Source: Sipunculus nudus
Lineage: Eukaryota; Annelida; Sipuncula; Golfingiida; Sipunculidae
Length of the DNA stretch: 64,000 bases
Direction of reading: 5' to 3'
Assembly (NCBI GenBank): GCA_026874595.1
Contig: CM049309.1
Coordinates: 69,794,926-69,858,925 of the forward strand
The notes beneath the pieces are model-generated. The model ran no database searches, had not been told where the DNA came from, and saw only the letters and a list, made by a program, of their open reading frames with translations. Positions 3,697 through 62,606 of the stretch are shown here, in pieces. Position numbers and translations under genes: made by a program. The first letter of the stretch is position 1. Each line of letters begins with the position of its first letter.

Positions 3697-3702
3697 TTTA
3701 TT
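3697..3702 (-). promoter_or_regulatory. polyadenylation signal AATAAA of the polyprotein gene
   Basis: The minus strand reads AATAAA here, about 36 bases past the TGA stop of the polyprotein gene. This would give a very short 3'UTR. It is the nearest canonical signal, and I did not identify the cleavage site. Confidence 0.55.
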
Positions 3703-3737: not shown

Positions 3738-6299
3738 TCACTGGCTGGTGACTGGGGTCTCCTTCGTGGCTGCCCCCTTCACCGGTGTTTCTTCCTTAAT
3801 TCCCCAGACTTTTTTATTTTTACTAACGTTAGGACTGTTTTTCTTGATCCATGCCATGTCACCACCCCATTTTTTGTCTTTAGCTACCTTTTCATCAGCA
3901 ACTACTTTTCCCTGCTTGGATTTTAACTCTTCTTCATGACTTTTTTTGTCCTTTTCTTGGTCCCTCTTAATCCAAGCCATATCTTGGCCCCATTTCTTAT
4001 CCGCGGAATCGCGCTTCATCCACTGCATATCTGAACCCCATGATTTTTTATCTTTATTGGTGTCCCGTTTAATCCAAGCCATGTCTTTGGAATTAAAGTG
4101 AGGCCCACTTGACCGTTTTTTTATCCAGGCCATATCTTGACCCCACTTCTTATCTGAACCACCACGTTTAATCCACGCCATGTCCTGGCCCCATTTTTTG
4201 TCAGGACCATTTGGCCCATTCCTTTTTATCCAGGCCATATCCTCCCCCCATTTTTTATTTGGTCCATTTCTCTTTATCCAGGCCATATCCTCTCCCCATT
4301 TCTTATCTGGGCCATTTCTCTTAATCCAGGCCATATCTTGTCCCCATTTCTTATCTGGGCCATTTCTCTTAATCCAGGCCATATCCTGGCCCCATTTCTT
4401 ATCTGGACCATTTCGTTTTATCCAGGCCATGTCTTGTCCCCATTTCTTTTCTGGACCATCTCTCTTTATCCAAGCCATATCCTCTCCCCATTTTTTATCT
4501 GGACCATTTCTTTTAATCCAGGCCATATCCTCCCCCCATTTTTTGTCTGGGCCATCAGGGCCATTCCTTTTAATCCAGGCCATATCTTGCCCCCATTTCT
4601 TATCAGGACCATCTGGGCCATTTCTCTTAATCCAAGCCATGTCCTGTCCCCATTTTTTCTCCGGACCATCCCTTTTTATCCAGGCCATATCTTGTCCCCA
4701 CTTTTTGTCTGGACCATTTCTCTTTATCCAGGCCATGTCCTCTCCCCATTTTTTATCTGGGCCATCTTGACCATTTCGCTTTATCCAAGCCATGTCTTGA
4801 CCCCATTTCTTGTTTTGTCCATTTCTTTTAATCCAGGCCATATCTTGTCCCCATTTCTTGTCTGGACTGTCTGGACCATTTCTCTTTATCCAAGCCATGT
4901 CTTGACCCCATTTTTTGTCTGGACCATCAGGGCCATTTCTTTTAATCCAGGCCATATCTTGGCCCCATTTCTTATCTGGGTCATTTCTCTTTATCCAGGC
5001 CATATCTTGGCCCCATTTCTTGTCTGGCCCATTTCTCTTTATCCATGCCATGTCCTGTCCCCATTTTTTATCAGGATTTCTCTTTATCCAAGACATGTCC
5101 TGGCCCCATCTCTTCATCCAGGACATGTCTTCACCCCATCTTTTCTCTCCTTCTCCCCTCTTGATCCATGCCATATCCTGTCCCCATTTCTTGTCATTGG
5201 CATTCCTTTTTATCCAAGACATGTCTGAGCCCCAGTTTTTCTTATCTTTATCTGCCTCTCTTTCAGTTACATGATGTTCACTGGCACTGGAGACATCTCG
5301 TCTTACTCTGACTGGTCCACTTCGCTTGAACCATTCACTATTAGCAGAGGTCCACATTCTCTTGTGGGCATAGGGTGGAACACGTTTGACCCAGTCAATA
5401 CTATCAGGATCAAAATTTCTCTTTTCCAGCCAGTCCAAGTCCGTATTTAGTGGTACATATGACCCAGTGCGCTTCAACCATCCGATAGAATCAGCATCAA
5501 AGGGTGCTCGTTTCAGCCAATCACTATTAGCCACAGACCACATACGTTTCTCAAGTGGTTTTTCATCATAAAAATCTTGGTCAGAGCTGCGTTTCAGCCA
5601 GGCAAGAGCATCCTGCCTGGGCCAGTCCCGTTTACGAAGCCACTGACTGTTGGCATATTTCCAGATCCTCTTTTCCAGATCGGGGTTGGACCTTTTTCGC
5701 TCATCCAGCCAAGCAGCATCAAAGGTATCCCAGCCCTTCTGTGCATCTCTTCGTACCCTTTTACTATGGTCTGCAAGCACTATGTCAAAGGAGCCAGAAA
5801 AACCACTGCCATCTGGTTTGACCATCACTGTTGGAGCTTCAAAAGAGGAAGGGACATCTCCAGCATCATTTGGCATCACCAGGATTTCAGAAGACAGCTC
5901 TTGGTGCTGGGGGCTGGCCACTTTCACAGCAACACTGAATGGAATGTGTTTAGTGGACTTACCTGGCAGCCATGTGGAAAATGAGTAACTGCCATCAGGT
6001 CCACTGACCACTGCACTGTGGCATCCAGCTTCTACCCCATCGTTTTGGAGAATATTTAAGTGCCACACATCTATCCTAGCATCTGACACAAGTGCACAGT
6101 TTTCATCCCTGACATGACCATGTACAGTCACTTTTGGGCCCTGTTTATCCAGCATGTCACATTCTTTCTCCAGTAAAGGTCCACTGATGGATTGTACACT
6201 GTGTCCAAACTGAGGTGTTGGACTGCATGTCTTTACCTCAGCGGCCGCAATGGACACCCACAGGAGAATTATCGTACCTACCAGGCAGGAGTGAGCCAT
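3738..6299 (-). CDS. secreted multi-copy WGxDMxW peptide precursor with an intradiol-dioxygenase-like N-terminal domain
   Basis: 853-residue secreted precursor in one exon. Residues 1-20 form a signal peptide (hydrophobic 6-19, likely cut after AAA). Residues about 40-176 resemble intradiol ring-cleavage dioxygenases: a GHVRDENCALVSDARIDVWH strand pair, SGPDGSYSFSTWLPG, then KHIPFSVAVKVASPQ, which aligns with the family's RPAHIHFKV region. The second His of that HxH pair is Pro, and the two Tyr iron ligands are not apparent, so catalysis is doubtful. RVRR sites at 181-184 and 331-334 bound a cassette of eight different Trp peptides. From residue 355, 26 copies of W-G-x-D-M-x-W-I/M (16 are exactly WGQDMAWI) plus one Phe-for-Trp copy are separated by KK and KR. 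No Gly precedes the dibasic sites, so no C-terminal amidation is predicted. The start codon has a GCCATGG context. The layout says neuropeptide or other secreted-peptide polyprotein; the receptor and function are unknown. Confidence 0.93.
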   Translation of the reverse strand: MAHSCLVGTIILLWVSIAAAEVKTCSPTPQFGHSVQSISGPLLEKECDMLDKQGPKVTVHGHVRDENCALVSDARIDVWHLNILQNDGVEAGCHSAVVSGPDGSYSFSTWLPGKSTKHIPFSVAVKVASPQHQELSSEILVMPNDAGDVPSSFEAPTVMVKPDGSGFSGSFDIVLADHSKRVRRDAQKGWDTFDAAWLDERKRSNPDLEKRIWKYANSQWLRKRDWPRQDALAWLKRSSDQDFYDEKPLEKRMWSVANSDWLKRAPFDADSIGWLKRTGSYVPLNTDLDWLEKRNFDPDSIDWVKRVPPYAHKRMWTSANSEWFKRSGPVRVRRDVSSASEHHVTEREADKDKKNWGSDMSWIKRNANDKKWGQDMAWIKRGEGEKRWGEDMSWMKRWGQDMSWIKRNPDKKWGQDMAWIKRNGPDKKWGQDMAWIKRNDPDKKWGQDMAWIKRNGPDGPDKKWGQDMAWIKRNGPDSPDKKWGQDMAWIKRNGQNKKWGQDMAWIKRNGQDGPDKKWGEDMAWIKRNGPDKKWGQDMAWIKRDGPEKKWGQDMAWIKRNGPDGPDKKWGQDMAWIKRNGPDGPDKKWGEDMAWIKRNGPDKKWGEDMAWIKRDGPEKKWGQDMAWIKRNGPDKKWGQDMAWIKRNGPDKKWGQDMAWIKRNGPDKKWGEDMAWIKRNGPNKKWGEDMAWIKRNGPNGPDKKWGQDMAWIKRGGSDKKWGQDMAWIKKRSSGPHFNSKDMAWIKRDTNKDKKSWGSDMQWMKRDSADKKWGQDMAWIKRDQEKDKKSHEEELKSKQGKVVADEKVAKDKKWGGDMAWIKKNSPNVSKNKKVWGIKEETPVKGAATKETPVTSQ
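3840..5237 (-). repeat. coding tandem repeat of 48/57 bp encoding WGxDMxW peptides
   Basis: Within the precursor, 27 peptide units are laid out as spacer (NGPD or NGPDGPD), KK, WGQDMAWI, KR. The commonest DNA unit is 48 bp, and a 57 bp form carries an extra GPD triplet pair. Copies 5-23 are nearly identical. Edge copies are divergent: WGSDMSWI first, then late copies FNSKDMAWI, WGSDMQWM and WGGDMAWI. The antisense strand of this array also reads open for long stretches. That follows from the repeat composition and is not a gene. Confidence 0.95.
5298..5747 (-). other. N-terminal cassette of eight non-identical Trp peptides (residues 185-334)
   Basis: Between the two RVRR-D sites the precursor encodes eight different peptides with a Trp one residue before the basic site: WDTFDAAWLDER, IWKYANSQWL, DWPRQDALAWL, MWSVANSDWL, APFDADSIGWL, TGSYVPLNTDLDWLE, NFDPDSIDWV and MWTSANSEWF. 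Four have two Trp separated by exactly six residues. All end Trp-hydrophobic (Leu, Val or Phe), matching the Trp-Ile/Met ends of the main repeat. This suggests the two peptide classes share an origin. The relationship is inference. Confidence 0.8.
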
Positions 6300-6379: not shown

Positions 6380-7256
6380 CTGCAAAAAGAAAACACAGAT
6401 AATAGTACAAAAGGTAAACATCAAAGAATCCCTGCTATTTTTTCACAATACATCACACTACAACAAACGGTTATGATTATGCTTCATGGCATGAAGATGT
6501 AAAGTTTTCCCTACAAATGATACAGAAACTATGATACAGGGAGTATGATTTCTCTAACCTGAAAATTTTCATTTACATATGACTAAAAACTTCAGTCCCT
6601 GAAGATTATTAAAAATCTATCTACATAAAATATGTAACTATCATATTACTGCTACATGACTGCTACTGTCAAAAGAAATCTGAAGAAATACTGCTATCTT
6701 GAAAGAATGAAAGAAGTACTAAGCCTGCGAGTAAAAATATAAGGAAGCTGCCTTGAAAATGATATGTGTGTGCTCCACAGAGAATGAATGATTGTAAAAT
6801 CCTACACAAGGAAATACCAGGCTAAAGAGTCCCTAACAATAATTCTTTGCAGAAGACCATGGTGACAGAGTACTGGTAGCTGTCGTAATGAGGAGATTTC
6901 TCAGCTGGATGGGTTCTGGATCTAGATCTAAATGTCATGGCTTTCTGCTTCTAACATGTTATACCCTTTGAGATCATGCATTCCTCATGATAACATGATT
7001 ACAGATTTTTAATATATATTTTCCCCAACAATGAATGTGCCCACAGACACAATGTTTTGCTGGTAGTAATTCAATAATCCTGTACATTTTTTTTGGTCTT
7101 TTTCTGGTTTAACCATGTTTTCTTTTTCCTTGTACAACCAGACAGCTGTTGTCTTTATATGGTCAAGAACCCACTGATATTCTTTTTAAAACATATTTTG
7201 CAACTGACTGTCAATCCACTTCTTTGCTTAATACCTTGAAATTAATGTATGAGTAC

Positions 7257-39509: not shown

Positions 39510-40598
39510 GCATTGACAAGAATCAATATGATAAACAGTATCTCTGATAAGAATCAATGTGTTTATCAATGGCTCTGACAAGAATCAATGTGATTATCAG
39601 TGGCTCTGACAAGAATCAATGTGATTGTCAGTGGCTCTGACAAGAATCAATGTGATTGTCAGTGGCTCTGACAAGAATCAATGTGATTATTAGTGGCTCT
39701 GACAAGAATCAATGTGATTATCAGTGGCTCTGACAAGATTCAATGTGATTGTCAGTGGCTCTGACAAGAATCAATGTGATTATCAGTGGCTCTGACAAGA
39801 ATCAATGTGATTGTCAGTGACTCTGACAAGAATCAATGTGATTATCAGTGGCTCTGACAAGAATCAATGTGATTATCAGTGGCTCTGACAAGAATCAATG
39901 TGATTGTCAGTGACTCTGACAAGAATCAATGTGATTATTAATGGCTCTGACAAGAAACAATGTGATTGTAAGTGGCTCTGAAAAGAATCAATGTGATTAT
40001 CGGTGGCTCTGACAAGAATCAATGTGATTATCAGTGGCTCTGACAAGAATCAATGTGATTGTCAGTGGCTCTGACAAGAATCAATGTGATTGTCAGTGGC
40101 TCTGAAAAGAATCAATGTGATTGTCAGTGGCTCTGACAAGAATCAATGTGATTGTCAGTGGCTCTGACAAGAATCAGTGATTATCAGTGGCTCTGACAAG
40201 AATCAATGTGATTGTCAGTGGCTCTGACAAGAATCAATGTGATTATCGGTGGCTCTGACAAGAATCAATGTGATTGTCAGTGGCTCTGACAAGAATCAAT
40301 GTGATTGTCAGTGGTTCTGACAAGAATCAATGTGATTATCGGTGGCTCTGACAAGAATCAATGCGATTATCAGTGGCTCTGACAAGAATCAATGTGATTA
40401 TCAGTGGCTCTGACAAGAATCAATGTGATTGTCAGTGGCTCTGACAAGAATCAATGTGATTGTCAGTGACTCTGACAAGAATCAATGTGATTGTCAGTGA
40501 CTCTGACAAGAATCAATGTGATTGTCAGTGACTCTGACAAGAATCAATGAAATAATTAATGGCTCTGACAAGAAACTGTGATTATTAATGGCTCTGAG
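39510..40598. repeat. 31 bp minisatellite, about 34 copies
   Basis: The unit is GTGATTRTCAGTGGCTCTGA followed by CAAGAATCAAT, 31 bp, head to tail. The interior is nearly uniform; single-base variants (ATT-A/G-TCAG, GGC/GAC) alternate along the array, and both ends are degenerate. Units with TGTCAG carry a 6-bp inverted repeat with CTGACA around TGGCT. The array contains no spacers, so it is not CRISPR-like. Confidence 0.97.
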
Positions 40599-41354
40599 AA
40601 GTATTATTACAAAAAATAAATACAATCTTCATAAACTAAAAGAACAAAACAATTGTTTTAGATCATTCTTACTTAATCTGTATGAAGCAGAAAATATTGC
40701 AGCCAGTATGTATTGTGTGAGTCCATCAAGATATTCTGAAGCCTATTTAACATTAATGAACCTTTTGTTGACTTCACCAAGACACAGCTTTCTACCATAA
40801 TCACAGAAACAATGCTGTCAGTGCCAGGTGAGGTAATGTATATAATTTTGACTCTTAACATATTTTTTTATATATTATCAATCACTTTTGGTCAACAATT
40901 GATACTGACACTTCTCCTGATAATCAGCTGTAACTTTTTCAATAACCATTTGCTAAACCCAGGCAGATACTTGATACTAACATATCTCACTACAGCTAGC
41001 CTTATTATTTAATTTAAGAGAATTATGACAGTAGTCATTATTTACAGATTCATCATATCTATAGTTTGTATTTTTTTTCTGATTTCTATATTTTTCAGAT
41101 GCTCAAGTAATATTAATTTATACCATAAACAACAAAAATAAATAATTAAACATAAGTAAAGTACATTCTAATAATTACATGGTCTTCCTAAAATACATTT
41201 TTATCTCTCAGGCAATGTGGGCATATACCACAATTCATTCTCAAGAATTATACCATAATTCACACATACATGGCAAAGACATTCGTACAACCTATTTCCC
41301 CGTTTCAGTATACACTGTAGTACATATTAGAAATCACGGAACAATTTAAAATCA

Positions 41355-53733: not shown

Positions 53734-54268
53734 TTTAAGTACTGTACGTACGGGCTAATATGTTAAAACAAAAATTCAAACTTTGCTCAGAAACAGTTAA
53801 GATATTATTATTTAAAATGTTTTGTTACTCTTTATATTGTGCCAGTCTCTGGTGTCAATACAGAAAGTCCAGCATAGAAAAGGTGAAAGTGGCGTACAAT
53901 AATGCTTTTAGGATATTTCTTGGCTTTCCAAAACACTGCAGCATCAGCAAAGAATTTATCAGTCGTAACATTACCACCTTTGATGCACTAATGCGCAAAG
54001 AGTTTTATTCATTAAAAATGAGAATAACTGAATCTGACAACCTGTATGTCAGAACTTTGTATGAATCTGATCTATATCTAAAGTCAGACTTGTTTAATTT
54101 TCATAACCAGAAGATGTTTGTTATCAGATTATAAGTAATAATGCAGTTGGCCTAAATCCTATGTTATTTGCTTTCTACTGTTTTTTTCTTTCTATTCTTA
54201 TTTACTTTCATTGTTTCTGTATATGGACCATGAGTCTGTAATAAAACATTATTATTATTATTATTATT
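53734..54268 (+). mobile_element. 5'-truncated non-LTR retrotransposon: C-terminal end of the ORF, 3'UTR and (ATT)n tail
   Basis: A frame from about 53740, starting LYVRANMLKQKFKLCS, runs to the stop at 54134. It matches the pattern C-terminal to LINE reverse transcriptases: K-x-LF-x-MFCYSLYCASLWC, then KVKVAYNNAFRIFLGFP, then a region like FxxxNITTFDALMRKEFYSL. The stop is followed by ~110 bases of 3'UTR and an (ATT)6-7 tail. That tail is a normal LINE 3' end, so only the 5' part is missing. An in-frame stop lies just upstream. It resembles the Jockey/CR1-like group; the clade is uncertain. Confidence 0.85.

Positions 54269-55488: not shown

Positions 55489-62606
<7,118 letters not shown>

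Follow-up and report, generated by a model that had tools for sequence, protein, structure and literature searches.

A predicted multi-copy peptide precursor from Sipunculus nudus carries an N-terminal intradiol dioxygenase-like domain

What kind of product is made from a gene in which an enzyme-like domain is followed by about 35 short tryptophan-rich peptides? This question is raised by a locus of Sipunculus nudus that lies on the minus strand of a 64,000 nt stretch of contig CM049309.1 (assembly GCA_026874595.1, positions 69,794,926 to 69,858,925; "the window" below, with all positions counted from its first nucleotide). Translation, cutting at dibasic sites and motif counting recovered all the parts that an earlier note on this DNA had described, namely a signal peptide, the domain, eight cassette peptides and 27 repeat units between dibasic sites (Table 1), and the domain strings quoted there were found in the translation as well. 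According to the frame listing and the translation, neither a stop codon nor an intron interrupts the 853 codons, and because no intron separates the domain from the repeats, gene prediction cannot have created their fusion. Judged from its sequence, the encoded protein (P0001) would represent a conserved and apparently undescribed family of multi-copy peptide precursors with an unusual dead-enzyme module.

The peptide part of P0001 is highly regular. Cutting at dibasic sites yields 35 fragments that end in Trp plus one hydrophobic residue, followed in two cases by one or two acidic residues, a count that matches the approximately 35 Trp-rich peptides announced previously. The eight cassettes are heterogeneous and end in Trp plus Leu, Val or Phe, with DE or E behind this end in two of them. 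The 27 DMxW units comprise 26 strict WGxDMxW copies and one degenerate DMAW copy, and the spacers between the units are mostly NGPD-like. On the C-side, the strict units are bounded by KR (24 of 26) or KK (2 of 26), and in 22 of the 26 KK immediately precedes the first Trp. Across the 26 strict units, with 10 codons each, the proportion of synonymous differences (pS) was 0.905 and that of nonsynonymous differences (pN) 0.062, the unit pattern fixing 5 of the 10 codons yet excluding only the degenerate unit; for 14 four-residue spacers, pS was 0.53 and pN 0.25. Tandem copies do not provide independent pairwise values. Synonymous sites are thus free to vary while the peptide is held, and therefore the peptide itself seems to be conserved, rather than the DNA merely having been copied recently. 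At the level of sequence, the repeat is not a chance pattern. A six-frame pattern scan of the window found the motif nowhere else; plus-strand frames of up to 296 codons at 4180–5274 mirror the repeats from the opposite strand. No Gly precedes any dibasic site in the whole of P0001, that is, there is no amidation signal. Because KK directly precedes Trp in most units, a longer, spacer-bearing form is possible, and the mature product could be either WGQDMAWI or a peptide that starts at the spacer.

The N-terminal domain is of the beta type and about 160 residues long. Its proposed resemblance to intradiol dioxygenases was borne out by NCBIfam profiles, PDB sequences and the predicted fold. The NCBIfam profiles matched at 2.4e-5 (the best), 1.4e-4 and 0.003, with scores of 17–24 bits, far under the equivalog cut-offs of 296–392 bits; the PDB sequence match was 0.0014 with the single sequence and 7.8e-5 with a two-sequence profile. 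For a low-confidence AlphaFold model, intradiol dioxygenases accounted for 50 of the 50 Foldseek matches among those listed, with VIA at ranks 1–20. Significant matches to the dioxygenase fold were thus obtained in both the profile and the structure-prediction checks. On the sequence evidence, we assign the domain by descent to the intradiol dioxygenase superfamily, and the model indicates that it shares the fold of this superfamily. The likeness to the known enzymes (SACTE_2871, PDB 4ilt/4ilv; spider mite, 6bdj/5vg2) consists of the sequence profile and the predicted beta-sandwich; P0001 differs from them by the absence of the canonical ligand set and by the fusion to a peptide polyprotein. 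Intradiol dioxygenases bind their iron by two Tyr and two His residues. However, residues 1–181 of P0001 contain a single Tyr (Y105), and none of the four ligand columns is kept in the PDB alignment read by eye, where another gap placement rescues at most one His. Since one Tyr is present but two are needed, canonical catalysis is excluded, the probable loss of the iron ligands suggested earlier is upheld, and an active dioxygenase was rejected. Three of the four Cys residues of the domain (25, 68 and 93) align with Cys residues of the relative P0002, and Cys47 lies near a fourth one. Intradiol dioxygenases are said to have been limited to bacteria and fungi before their transfer to mites, the spider-mite enzymes being derived from fungi (PMC9167512).

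Relatives were obtained in two protein searches, one with the whole of P0001, which yielded P0002 and P0003, and one with a three-sequence profile, which also yielded P0004. In these searches, scoring was confined to about 8000 candidates with the most words in common, and the absence of relatives in other animals therefore means little. A protein search with residues 1–300 gave no match at E 1, and no relative was confirmed among 22 and 28 pattern stretches from viral contigs and prokaryote genome contigs, respectively, as expected for an animal gene. P0002 (ENA) starts with a signal-like stretch and shares the domain of P0001 (z 15.9 between the two, with 0 of 1000 shuffles as good); it further contains three Trp cassettes, 11 units of the type WA[K/R]DSGM[S/A]WI and one variant. 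The join of domain and peptides recurs in P0002, and thus the architecture found in the window is not isolated. A single relative, P0003, comes from a named species, the annelid Paralvinella palmiformis; this hypothetical protein has mixed Trp cassettes followed by 15 units of the type WGASGMSWI. P0004 is a JGI metagenome fragment with nine units and a missing start. The distance between the two Trp residues differs between the proteins (5 in P0001, 7 in P0002, 6 in P0003 and P0004); an M-[A/S]-W-I-KR end prevails in all four, and KR is dominant also in the units of the relatives, which were chosen by a pattern requiring a dibasic site. No amidation Gly precedes a dibasic site in P0002, and the two such sites each in P0003 and P0004 follow spacers, not Trp peptides.

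The match of the P0001 domain to Pfam PF00775 stayed below the cut-off. The finding that speaks most against a simple history of the family concerns the N-terminal region of P0003 (residues 1–153). This region, which contains Cys residues, reached z 3.9 against P0001, with 4 of 1000 shuffles as good, and z −0.4 against P0002. In the profile test it was beaten by at least 8 of 2000 shuffles, and its other matches were all at chance level or below threshold. Going by the sequences, either this N-terminus has diverged past recognition or the annelid precursors have another domain. One profile comparison covered the repeats only and carries nothing on the domain. A Pfam Transp_inhibit label on 17 residues of P0003 was rejected (30.1 bits versus a cut-off of 33).

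The general features of neuropeptide precursors are present in P0001, that is, a signal-peptide-like start, recognized without a predictor, and repeated peptides bounded by dibasic sites. The earlier statement that such precursors normally have no folded domain is too strong, as vasotocin-type precursors carry a neurophysin domain and thus, like P0001, combine a folded domain and a peptide within one precursor (PMC8557429). In the vasotocin/oxytocin-neurophysin precursors, however, there is one peptide copy and the domain is C-terminal, whereas P0001 has about 35 peptides and an N-terminal domain. The neurophysin fold is unrelated to the intradiol-like domain. We consider it fairly probable that P0001 is a multi-copy peptide-hormone precursor in which a dead-enzyme module has been retained for folding or granule sorting. 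The signal peptide would direct the protein into the secretory route, and the beta domain, with an intradiol dioxygenase as its ancestor, would fold, perhaps with disulphides and without the usual iron binding; it may have been retained to assist folding or sorting or to serve as a carrier, like neurophysin in vasotocin precursors. Prohormone convertases would cut at KR, possibly also at KK, and a carboxypeptidase would remove the basic residues. The products would be eight different Trp-rich peptides and some 26 octapeptides of the form W-x5-W-I, which are almost identical and would have a free C-terminus; if KK is left uncut, longer peptides starting with the spacer would take the place of the octapeptides. 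The released peptides would be extracellular signals, most likely acting via a G-protein-coupled receptor.

It is conceivable, though unlikely, that a lophotrochozoan hormone family captured an intradiol dioxygenase and turned it into a dead carrier that sorts or holds Trp-rich, non-amidated WxnMxWI peptides, which would be ligands of an orphan spiralian receptor, for example of the proctolin type, for which the ligand is called unknown (PMC8557429). Under the main reading, that of a hormone precursor with a retained module, P0001 would add a conserved and apparently undescribed family of peptides without amidation, marked so clearly by two Trp, M[A/S]WI and KR that it can be sought in existing peptidomes and transcriptomes. 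Orphan spiralian receptors would gain candidate ligands. In addition, the domain of a metabolic enzyme would have been taken up to form the folded section of a peptide precursor, for which neurophysin offers the other known solution.

Alternatively, the precursor could belong to a gland rather than to the nervous system and be released externally or into mucus, tube or egg masses, being cut into antimicrobial, pheromonal or adhesive Trp-rich peptides. The high Trp content (70 of the 853 residues), the very high copy number and the lack of amidation would fit this possibility, as would the description of the spider-mite enzymes, animal relatives of the domain, as secreted (PMC9167512). Nevertheless, we regard a gland product as rather unlikely, given that the trimmed main unit has one Asp and no basic residue, and that its short core is strictly kept while the spacers vary. 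Most antimicrobial peptides are unlike such an acidic, base-free unit, and receptor ligands typically show a strictly kept short core between spacers that vary.

Could the units instead be divergent members of the MIP/allatostatin-B/WWamide family (W..Wamide) that have lost the amidation signal and act on the MIP/sex-peptide receptor? Many short peptides with two similarly spaced Trp residues occur in both, the spacings in all four proteins (x5, x6 or x7) lie inside the W(X4-7)W range of molluscan MIPs (PMC8514136), and a non-amidated sex peptide with paired Trp also activates this receptor (PMC7270403). However, MIPs are C-terminal amides (PMC8514136), whereas none of the Trp peptides of the four proteins is followed by Gly and a dibasic site; in addition, the last Trp is followed by a further Ile or Leu in most units, and P0001 carries the enzyme-like domain. 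Because there is no amidation signal, the window units are by definition not MIP/allatostatin-B peptides, and we rejected membership in spite of the fitting gaps; a divergent origin from this family is quite improbable. Still more improbable is an uncut, repetitive structural secreted protein that adheres to surfaces or cross-links via Trp and Lys: the 27 repeats are indeed rich in both residues, and the predicted peptides are known from sequence alone, but every strict unit has KR or KK at its C-side, and KR remains dominant in the relatives despite changed spacers and a changed distance between the Trp residues.

Two further families were compared with the hormone precursor proposed here. 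Pedal peptide/orcokinin precursors also contain many non-amidated copies (pedal peptide is non-amidated; PMC4200219), in which hydrophobic residues are conserved in both the N-terminal and the C-terminal part and the end is of the SGF type (PMC5814872). The SGM core of the relatives recalls the SGF-type core, a likeness of few residues seen by eye; pedal peptide/orcokinin peptides are, again by eye, longer and without paired Trp, whereas those of the window are shorter, with WI as their end. The Platynereis WLD precursor encodes an annelid neuropeptide with W in its name. Compared by its description, WLD is Cys-bearing and reported from Platynereis only (PMC3890597), and identity was rejected. 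P0001 was not found to be a member of a named neuropeptide family. The earlier claim that no family with such an architecture has been described is supported within the reach of the open-licence PMC literature, in which we found neither a description of the family nor the exact repeat strings; supplementary precursor lists, which may include the family, lay outside the search. In the same literature, no text was found that places an intradiol domain and a neuropeptide within one protein, and papers containing both words were, by listing, arthropod gene-expression studies.

The features of the locus are collected in Table 1. By the usual cleavage rule, the signal peptide probably ends with AAA, directly before E21. 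The end of the possible splice acceptor lies, by eye, 81 bases upstream of the ATG, and no upstream exon was identified.

Table 1. Predicted features of the precursor gene (positions in the window)
Feature	Residues	Position	Strand	Remarks
Coding frame		3738..6299	−	single exon, 853 aa; signal peptide, intradiol-like domain, 8 cassettes, 27 DMxW units, tail
Likely signal peptide	1-20	6240..6299	−	hydrophobic core, AAA preceding E21; from sequence only, without a predictor
Intradiol dioxygenase-like beta domain	21-181	5757..6239	−	canonical ligands gone; KR at end
Eight cassette peptides and spacers	185-326	5322..5747	−	by dibasic-site cutting
Repeat block	355-820	3840..5237	−	26 WGxDMxW[I/M] units and 1 degenerate DMAWI unit
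C-terminal tail	821-853	3741..3839	−	one extra VWG start, motif not completed
Possible 3' splice acceptor (TTTTTGCAG) of a 5' UTR intron		6380..6390	−	putative, by eye
AATAAA polyadenylation signal		3697..3702	−	first base 36 bases past the stop codon; by eye

In the remainder of the window, neither a tRNA nor an Rfam family at gathering score was detected, and stop-to-stop frames of at least 150 aa are absent from 7000–64000. Outside the gene region there are 135 frames of at least 60 aa; a Pfam scan of 10 of these gave one sub-threshold DUF at 0.089 and no match for the other nine. A frame of 131 residues on the plus strand (53739–54131) resembles, by its look, the final part of a LINE reverse transcriptase; Pfam and PDB yielded no match for it. 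Two tandem arrays are also present: a minisatellite in which a 31-base unit occurs about 35 times (39514–40601, 92% match), and about 2.2 copies of a 336-base unit (59990–60719, 84% match).
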